Shown here piece after piece: positions 6,415 to 25,290 of a DNA stretch of 64,000 bases (the stretch's first letter is position 1; every line of letters begins with the position of its first letter). A program made the translations under genes and the position numbers. The stretch lies in contig NZ_CP063785.1 of assembly GCF_025860405.1 (NCBI RefSeq), positions 8,123,390-8,187,389 of the forward strand, given 5' to 3'. The DNA is from Tolypothrix sp. PCC 7712. GTDB lineage: Bacteria > Cyanobacteriota > Cyanobacteriia > Cyanobacteriales > Nostocaceae. The notes below the pieces were generated by a model. That model was not told the DNA's origin. It was given only the letters and a program-made list of their open reading frames with translations, and made no database searches.

Positions 6415-6660
6415 CTATGAAGCTACCTCTATCAACTCTTGGCGATGACTGGTTAATTCAAAGGTGATAGAACCTACATAGTTTTGATGAACAATTTTGT
6501 TGAGAATGATCAGTTCTGGAATTATCTCTCGTAACTTTTGCGTCAGAACTTCAATCGTAGAAGCTTCTGTCACTAATCCAGGCACATCATCACTAGTTGC
6601 AACCCAGACTTGTGCATCTGAGTCCCAAAATGCTTCTACCTTAAATGTGACTTGAGTCAT
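6415..6660 (-). CDS. DUF1902 domain protein
   Basis: About 81 residues from the ATG at 6660 (MTQVTFKVEAFWDSDAQVW...). The sequence fits the DUF1902 family, a small HicB-like fold: VTFKVEAFWDSDAQVWVA, then DDVPGLVTEAST and LREIIPELI. Its function is not established. A longer frame reaches an ATG at 6699, but those extra residues come from sequence at the edge of the mini-transposon at 6699-6900 and do not resemble the family, so I chose 6660. No toxin partner lies beside it. The element occupies the position where its promoter should be. Confidence 0.7.
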   Translation of the reverse strand: MTQVTFKVEAFWDSDAQVWVATSDDVPGLVTEASTIEVLTQKLREIIPELIILNKIVHQNYVGSITFELTSHRQELIEVAS

Positions 6661-6693
6661 CATTGAGTGTTTACAACTTAGTTTCAGTTTAGA

Positions 6694-6698
6694 ACACA
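6694..6698. repeat. Left target-site duplication (ACACA)
   Basis: Five bases identical to 6901-6905 on the other side of the mini-element, as expected for a 5-bp staggered insertion. Confidence 0.75.
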
Positions 6699-6900
6699 TG
6701 TAGCTTAAAAGATAAAGTGACCGTTTTTAAAGCAATAAGTGGCCGCAGAACAGAACCTATGACAGAAGCGTATTTGAGAGAATTGAGTGTGATCGCTTGT
6801 AAAGTATGGCGAAATTAGGGTGACGCAAAAATAAGCATTGCAGGTTTTTAAGGCGGCCACTTTATCCTTTAATTTCGGCCACTTTATCCCTTAAGTGACA
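6699..6900. mobile_element. 202-bp miniature inverted-repeat element, TGT...ACA ends
   Basis: It begins TGT at 6699 and ends ACA at 6900. The two 48-base ends are inverted copies of each other, with about 11 mismatches. Each end carries two tandem copies of a GATAAAGTGGCCG-like motif about 22 bases apart (right end: 6894 to 6852 read on the minus strand). It is flanked by the 5-bp direct repeat ACACA. TGT ends, multiple internal end sites and a 5-bp duplication are the pattern of the TnsB/IS21/Tn552-type DDE transposases. There is no transposase; the centre (about 6750-6850) has no gene. It is a non-autonomous relic or MITE mobilised by an element elsewhere. Confidence 0.8.
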
Positions 6901-6929
6901 ACACAGCTAGCTGTCTGAGCTAACTAGTC

Positions 6930-7376: not shown

Positions 7377-7508
7377 GTTGACTGTTGACTGTTGACTGTT
7401 GACTGTTGACTGTTGACTGTTGACTGTTGACTGTTGACTGTTGACTGTTGACTGTTGACTGTTGACTGTTGACTGTTGACTGTTGACTGTTGACTGTTGA
7501 CTGTTGAC
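7377..7508. repeat. Heptamer array (GTTGACT)18 plus 6 bases
   Basis: Eighteen identical consecutive GTTGACT units followed by GTTGAC, 132 bases with no variants. It fills the gap between moaD and the photolyase-like gene. The same heptamer, with variants, recurs inside mfd at 63236-63375. Perfect identity suggests recent expansion by slippage. Confidence 0.95.
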
Positions 7509-7510
7509 CA

Positions 7511-24706: not shown

Positions 24707-25290
24707 ATTTATTATTCTTTGGCGACACTGCTTGATAGCAATAGCTAGTTTTCAATAATGTATTTATACCAGCGTAAATATATGAATAAGAGCGCACATC
24801 TGTACGCTCTTATTCATCATTGATGTGTTGCAAGGTCTTTAAAGTTGGGATTACAAGTATTTTTAAATAAATCTCCTGTATAGCGTAGCAATAGTCATAA
24901 ATATTTCGCTACAAAAGATGCAAACAGATAAATACTGCAGTCAGAACAGTCTCAACAATCAATTATTCAATTCCTACAACCCAAGCTAAAGTAAGGGTAC
25001 AAAAATTTCATACCCTGATCATAATCAGTAGCTTAACGCGCAATTTTACGTTCTTGCATAGAAAATAACTATTTTGCAGCTTTTTATTCCCTTTTCAAAG
25101 CAGATGTGACATTAAGCAAATTTTTTCAAAGTTTCAGCCTAATTACAAATTAAACCTGAGATAATGTGCCTTTAAGTTCTATAGCAATATTTAGTGAGCC
25201 TTGAGCATTTCTAAAAAGTAAGATTTTGGACTACTTGCATAAGTTCAGAATCTTGATTTTGCCTGTTTAAGTAATATCTAACAAAAGTAT
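24707..25290. other. Intergenic region, 584 bases
   Basis: Contains the hairpin at 24782-24817. The remaining about 470 bases upstream of the lipase-like gene are AT-rich, with no gene or recognised site. Confidence 0.5.
24782..24817 (+). terminator. Terminator-like perfect inverted repeat
   Basis: A 13-bp perfect stem (ATGAATAAGAGCG and complement) with a 10-base loop, 76 bases past the transducer stop. It has no T-run, so it may act as a stabilising 3' hairpin rather than a classical terminator. Confidence 0.5.

Follow-up and report, generated by a model that had tools for sequence, protein, structure and literature searches.

What is the short sequence bounded by TGT and ACA beside a DUF1902 gene of Tolypothrix sp. 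PCC 7712, how did it come to be there, and what chose its place? An earlier note, made from the DNA alone, had described in the window (the whole stretch that was analysed, 64,000 nucleotides) a 202-bp TGT...ACA element between two copies of ACACA, and the coordinates that it gave proved exact. The complete element (TGTAGC...GTGACA) occupies 6699-6900 on the + strand, with ACACA at 6694-6698 and again at 6901-6905. Its 48-base ends are imperfect inverted repeats, as had been proposed, the arms at 6699-6746 (+) and 6853-6900 (-) being 77% complementary. Each end had also been said to carry two sites. A site scan with GATAAAGTGGCCG, allowing up to two mismatches, found three of these four putative transposase-binding sites, one in the left end (6711-6723, one mismatch) and two exact ones in the right end (6854-6866 and 6876-6888). 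The fourth, GCAATAAGTGGCCG at about 6733-6745 in the left arm, is one base out of register and was missed at the two-mismatch limit. The number of sites is by itself weak evidence: three were counted in the element against 0.92 expected, at least three occurred in 7 of 100 shuffles, and at up to two mismatches GATAAAGTGGCCG is not enriched genome-wide (69 and 84 occurrences, the reversed control giving 99 and 104). Exact GATAAAGTGGCCG occurs four times in the genome, in every case within two copies of the 202-bp element.

All eight genomes of the genus that were searched, the own genome included, match the region. The locus is empty in three of them (G007, G003 and G005), with a single ACACA and no element, and also in a fourth, G002, which has AAACA in place of ACACA; in G001, G004 and G006 the alignment ends short of the insertion site. 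As the empty sites hold one copy of the 5-bp sequence, insertion with 5-bp target duplication is shown, and the empty sites that the earlier note had proposed to look for are present in four relatives. At a second locus, G002 carries a 202-bp copy that is 96% identical and has its own duplication, ACCTT. Given this copy and the empty sites, the element is not a product of chance.

The element is one of a dispersed family. Matches were found in 60 of 217 genomes of the taxonomic family (E up to 1e-6) and in 15 of 58 relatives (E up to 0.01), and a plasmid search with the element returned 13 records, every one from cyanobacterial genera. Within the own genome, the matches are two fragments, one of 165 bp on the chromosome (query 38-202, 95%) and one on contig C15, the rest having E values of 0.1 or worse. 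Among the loci in hand, 43 full-length hits reduced to 28 copies with distinct flanks once those hits were removed that start after query base 12, end before base 195 or come within 20 bp of the end of a locus, together with repeats sharing identical 12-bp flanks. A perfect 5-bp duplication borders 7 of these 28 copies, compared with 1 of 756 mismatched flank pairs. The element is short, has inverted ends, lacks a transposase gene, occurs in multiple copies and has an autonomous relative. It shares its traits with prokaryotic MITEs, including the cyanobacterial Nezha, which PMC10969869 characterizes as short, non-coding, with inverted ends and a target duplication, and mobilised in trans. We conclude that the element is a MITE, in which very little other sequence separates the left and right ends of a Tn7-like transposon.

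The earlier note had foreseen this origin, taking the element for a non-autonomous passenger of a TnsB-like transposon, and TnsAB-TnsC-TniQ relatives with matching ends do exist. These are Tn7-like transposons of 5.5-5.7 kb, all of them in other genomes. The best, L223 (G220:C191:109-5673, 5565 bp), has near full-length matches to TnsAB, TnsC and TniQ; its two ends are identical over 50 bp and agree with the MITE ends at 43/50 (left) and 42/50 positions. Pfam domains in L223 are rve (below the cut-off) and Mu-transpos_C in TnsAB, AAA_22 and TniB in TnsC, and TniQ. L224 and L163 resemble L223 in ends and genes, and L163 carries the duplication ACTGC. A further element with MITE-type ends, L088, has a TnsA-like domain and has lost the middle of TnsB; the TnsA-like N domain was detected in L088 and in the own-genome family A described below, and L223 gave no match to it at E up to 0.01. 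Arrays of transposase-binding sites of about 20 bp on both sides are given as a Tn7-like hallmark in PMC8649781. The elements studied here have TGT...ACA ends with paired putative transposase-binding sites on both sides, and in the autonomous relatives TnsB, the TnsC ATPase and TniQ lie between matching ends. IS21, named earlier as a possible family, is ruled out by the same gene content, as relatives with these ends encode TnsAB, TnsC and TniQ and not istA/istB. A CRISPR-associated parent was also considered and rejected: L163 (2118-7787) contains tnsAB, tnsC and tniQ only among frames of at least 150 aa, and the frames of at least 100 aa in L088 likewise include no cas genes. In one further locus, L166 (G057:C8), sites like those of the MITE stand at one contig end together with a 901-aa TnsAB frame and TnsC over two frames; two more large frames adjoin TnsAB/TnsC and may be cargo.

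Does the element do anything besides carrying ends? An RNA gene was rejected, Rfam giving no match at E up to 0.1; the element folds strongly (z -5.3), as inverted ends would lead one to expect. A simple scan found no outward sigma-70 promoter or terminator. A short open frame, MTEAYLRELSVIACKVWRN, lies at 6759-6818 (+) and stops 82 bp before the right tip. It is not maintained as a peptide, the differences between 15 copies and the window copy falling 26, 56 and 23 on the three codon positions; in an alignment of 16 copies, conservation is about equal in the interior and the ends, and there is no codon pattern. In four relatives (L223, L224, L163, L088) the tniQ stop stands at a distance of 85-88 bp from the tip, in L228 and L229 at 68 bp, and the frame has a YLRE(L/I) string in common with family B. 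From this similar distance and the shared string, MTEAYLRELSVIACKVWRN may possibly be a relic of the 3' end of tniQ. A search for a sequence from which the MITE interior could derive directly at the nucleotide level found none. Elsewhere in the window, at 7378-7509, a 7-base tandem repeat (TGTTGAC) was seen by eye, running for about 130 bp between two frames.

The own genome does not supply the parent that the earlier note had expected to be recognisable there. Apart from the 165-bp and C15 fragments, a search with the MITE gave no strong match to its ends, and no TnsAB element with MITE-type ends was found among the places compared, which are ten of the 14 TnsB-type (Mu-transpos_C) places in the genome. 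These ten belong to three multicopy families, A (four copies), B (two) and C (four), which end differently; the other four places lie outside them, at C1:2877585, C3:5401, C3:11080 and C4:81907. Family A consists of four nearly identical TnsAB-TnsC-TniQ copies of about 4,904 bp (L150-L153, on G000 C1 and C4), with 5-bp duplications in two of the four; the copy at L153 is followed by a second, partial right end. We take 4,904 bp to be the length of Tn5469, and family A is probably that transposon. Its TniQ has 273 aa and the TniQ domain only, while that of family B has 529 aa. Family C has four copies of about 4.75 kb (L156-L159; G000 C3, C4 and C5), one of which, L157, has TnsAB and TnsC and no TniQ among frames of at least 120 aa.

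Inspection of the flanks of the 28 copies revealed that the outer tip of another Tn7-like element recurs just outside them. We built a tip matrix of 24 positions from eight autonomous elements, using both ends of each, and ran it over flanks of 300 bp. The loci scored were the best matches of each search together with chosen stretches, a part of the 217 genomes. The best tip lay 50-56 bp from the insertion point in 30 of 44 elements, namely 25/28 MITEs, 5/6 autonomous relatives and 0/10 copies of the own families A-C (one weak best match in family C lies at 57 bp). The autonomous relative that does not fit is L223, whose flanks are short. Among the five that do, L229 (G215:C17) has a second end of its own type at that place; two right ends of that type stand 51 bp apart there, possibly by self-targeting or by end duplication. 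Widening the range to 49-57 bp again gave 25 of the 28 MITEs, with 18 flanks at exactly 53 bp; L181, L187 and L198 break the spacing. When a positive score was required, a tip stood at 49-57 bp on either side of 23/28 copies, compared with 130/20000 random positions in the window. All seven MITEs with a perfect duplication fit, six at 53 bp and one at 55 bp (the window copy belongs to this group, with a negative score), and the autonomous L163 is also at 53 bp. The spacing holds in 18 of the 21 copies without a perfect duplication as well. Insertion occurs in either orientation (17 L-side and 12 R-side flanks), a freedom that may follow from the near-identical ends; classical Tn7 inserts in a fixed orientation.

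The 53-bp rule arose from the first 28 copies and was then tried on others. A second set of 40 stretches was fetched from the same genomes once the rule had been noticed; flanks under 100 bp and those already present in the first set were dropped, and the set still includes tips that lack TGT and a few L228-type tips. Here 21 of 47 flanks, in 19 of 33 loci, had a tip at 50-56 bp, compared with 60/2350 random positions. In a strict set, from which ends without a strict site were dropped, 38 of 70 flanks fell at 49-56 bp and 24 at exactly 53 bp. We expect one fitting flank per element, so about half of the flanks would be near the maximum. Classifying all loci in hand by type of end, in sets that may overlap and with 0.045 expected per flank, tips at 49-56 bp were found for 71/146 flanks of mini-type ends (peak 53) and 33/73 of L228-type ends (peak 51), and for 11/51 of A-type, 1/9 of B-type and 0/22 of C-type ends. 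From the A-type excess, tip placement may reach beyond the MITE clade. Taken together, most of the examined copies are placed about 53 bp inside tip-like sequence, and statistically this placement is non-random.

An ordinary untargeted MITE could also cluster near other tips if it shared genomic refuges with them, such as the vicinity of tRNA genes and plasmids, and if a few nested arrays were inherited. Some copies may indeed be inherited rather than independent, some have outer families in common, and in L180, L184, L185, L186 and L188, judged by eye, the copies or their outer, nested Tn7-like tips stand close to tRNA-like sequence. We regard this explanation as highly improbable, as it leaves the sharp spacing unexplained (peak at 53 bp, with 18 flanks, and 24 in the strict set). 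The insertion events with eight different duplications all keep the spacing, the second set repeats the peak, and the own families A-C have none of their ten copies at 50-56 bp, the weak C match lying at 57 bp.

Many of the target tips are those of other Tn7-like families. In L234, a MITE with the duplication GTAAG interrupts the left end of an A-like (Tn5469-like) element, 55 bp in from its tip. This host has tnsAB, tnsC and tniQ matches, its left end resumes past the MITE as in an uninterrupted own copy, and the element is apparently complete. On C15 the own copy stands 52 bp within a B-like tip that scores 24.7. The other chromosomal copy of the own genome has one intact flank, in which no tip is seen.

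A 4701-bp unit in G024 has an inner element of 4595 bp between two outer tips, left and right, of 53 bp each. It occurs twice in the chromosome, each time between other outer flanks, and one contig is exactly this unit, with one mismatch to each site's copy. The outer duplication is CAGTC at one site and absent at the other. As the unit stands at two sites with different flanks, the composite seems to move by its outer ends. The inner Tn7-like element of the unit (L088, L089 and L090) has a gutted TnsB. Outer tips on both sides without an inner duplication characterize L081, L192, L092, L091, L088, L089 and L228, of which only L088 and L091 have an outer duplication. These elements, and the G024 unit in particular, could be taken to mean that the outer tips in general are parts of composites made by recombination and were never insertion targets. 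We consider this improbable, since perfect 5-bp duplications, the mark of insertion, lie exactly at the inner junction in eight cases, and recombination after insertion could account for the remaining elements. The two-tip elements are what one would expect if an element had inserted at each tip and the inner copies had then recombined.

What, then, was the target of the window copy? The insertion lies in the upstream region of the DUF1902 gene at 6415-6663 (-; PF08972, E 2.5e-20). The proposed target is the tip-like TGTGACTTGAGTCATCATTGAGTG at 6646-6669 (+), which overlaps the start of that gene and whose first base is 53 bp before the insertion point. It is the best of 277 flank offsets, with a score of only -8.3, and its position alone has p of about 0.036. 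The four empty-site relatives carry TGTGATTTGTGTCATCA there, at 53 bp (54 bp in L215). We interpret the window copy, with modest confidence, as an off-target insertion at a pseudo-tip. The window contains a second tip-like sequence, TGTGACATTAAGCAAATTTTTTCA at 25105 (+), with a score of 13.9.

Our overall reading, which we hold to be probable, is that this Tn7-like MITE family inserts about 53 bp inside the tips of Tn7-like transposons, with TniQ as the probable tip reader. The matching ends suggest that an autonomous relative would supply the proteins that mobilise the MITE in trans. The family inserts about 53 bp inside the tips of other Tn7-like elements, just beyond their two outermost putative transposase-binding sites; now and then, and probably in the window, a chance tip-like sequence at 53 bp serves instead. 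TniQ, which in this clade has about 525 aa, may bind the transposon tips through its C-terminal half, TnsC would set the distance and TnsAB would join the ends there. According to PMC11406308, C-terminal DNA-binding parts are usual in Tn7-like TniQ proteins and presumably specify the target, and the Tn7-like TnsC ring fixes the distance. The TniQ proteins of the clade are 523-530 aa long, and we infer that they read tips and that the shorter TniQ of family A does not. Family B has a TniQ of the same size range, and neither of its two copies is placed at a tip; TniQ length by itself is therefore not the explanation.

Recognition could also be of a different kind, in which the foreign TnsAB bound at its own ends is sensed, rather than the tip DNA. 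The insertions lie just beyond the two outermost putative binding sites, and the targets are varied, the 21 positive-score targets at 53 bp in the strict set including 16 with less than 75% mutual identity. A 1999 study, to judge from its title, reportedly provides a precedent in Tn5053, which would sense res sites occupied by resolvase. PMC11406308 likewise offers Tn5053 as a precedent for the sensing of resolvase-occupied res sites. Bound TnsAB is harder to reconcile with the pseudo-tip of the window, which stands at a gene start and has, by eye, no second site, or with degenerate targets such as those of L179 and L195. We regard sensing of the bound transposase as unlikely, and prefer the reading in which TniQ recognises the tip DNA.

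Known systems resemble this behaviour in part. IS5075 and IS4321, of the IS110/IS1111 family, insert into the terminal inverted repeats of Tn21-like transposons. They are thus like the MITE family in inserting at the ends of other transposons, but use an unrelated recombinase, and their target lies within the repeat itself, with no distance. Tn5469 of Fremyella diplosiphon is, like family A, a small TnsAB-TnsC-TniQ transposon without cargo. Family A, which is Tn5469-like, differs from the MITE clade in its end sequences, in its 273-aa TniQ and in tip placement (0/4 copies). PMC11406308 presents Tn5469 as apparently untargeted only. The Tn5053 family (TniABQ, the 'res site hunters') is alike in having a single TniQ and a target that belongs to other transposons or plasmids, as described in PMC11406308. 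The target of Tn5053 is the res site of Tn3-type elements, whereas the targets here resemble Tn7-like tips and lie at about 53 bp. In the literature searched we found no report of Tn7-type MITEs or of tip targeting; Hsieh and Peters 2023, outside that coverage, may describe it. In a term search of PMC10969869, Tn7 appeared as an example of a target site and in a reference, and not as a parent of MITEs.

A broader possibility, which we consider evenly balanced, is that this Tn7-like clade and its MITEs use the tips of other Tn7-like elements as their attachment site, at 53 bp (51 bp in the sister type). Insertion in both tips followed by recombination would then provide an element with foreign ends, by which a foreign transposase could move it, and the G024 composite would be an example. 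Target choice is the chief difference among Tn7-like elements, and a selector that reads the tips of rivals would be one more life style; the 2024 review PMC11406308 expects further life styles among TniQ proteins. Programs that find transposon boundaries could mistake outer for inner tips where these stand 53 bp apart. If the reading is correct, the family would represent a natural protein-guided integration system with a fixed distance. Tip targeting would account for the nested ends in these genomes, and the tips of rivals would serve the clade as harmless and mobile landing sites.
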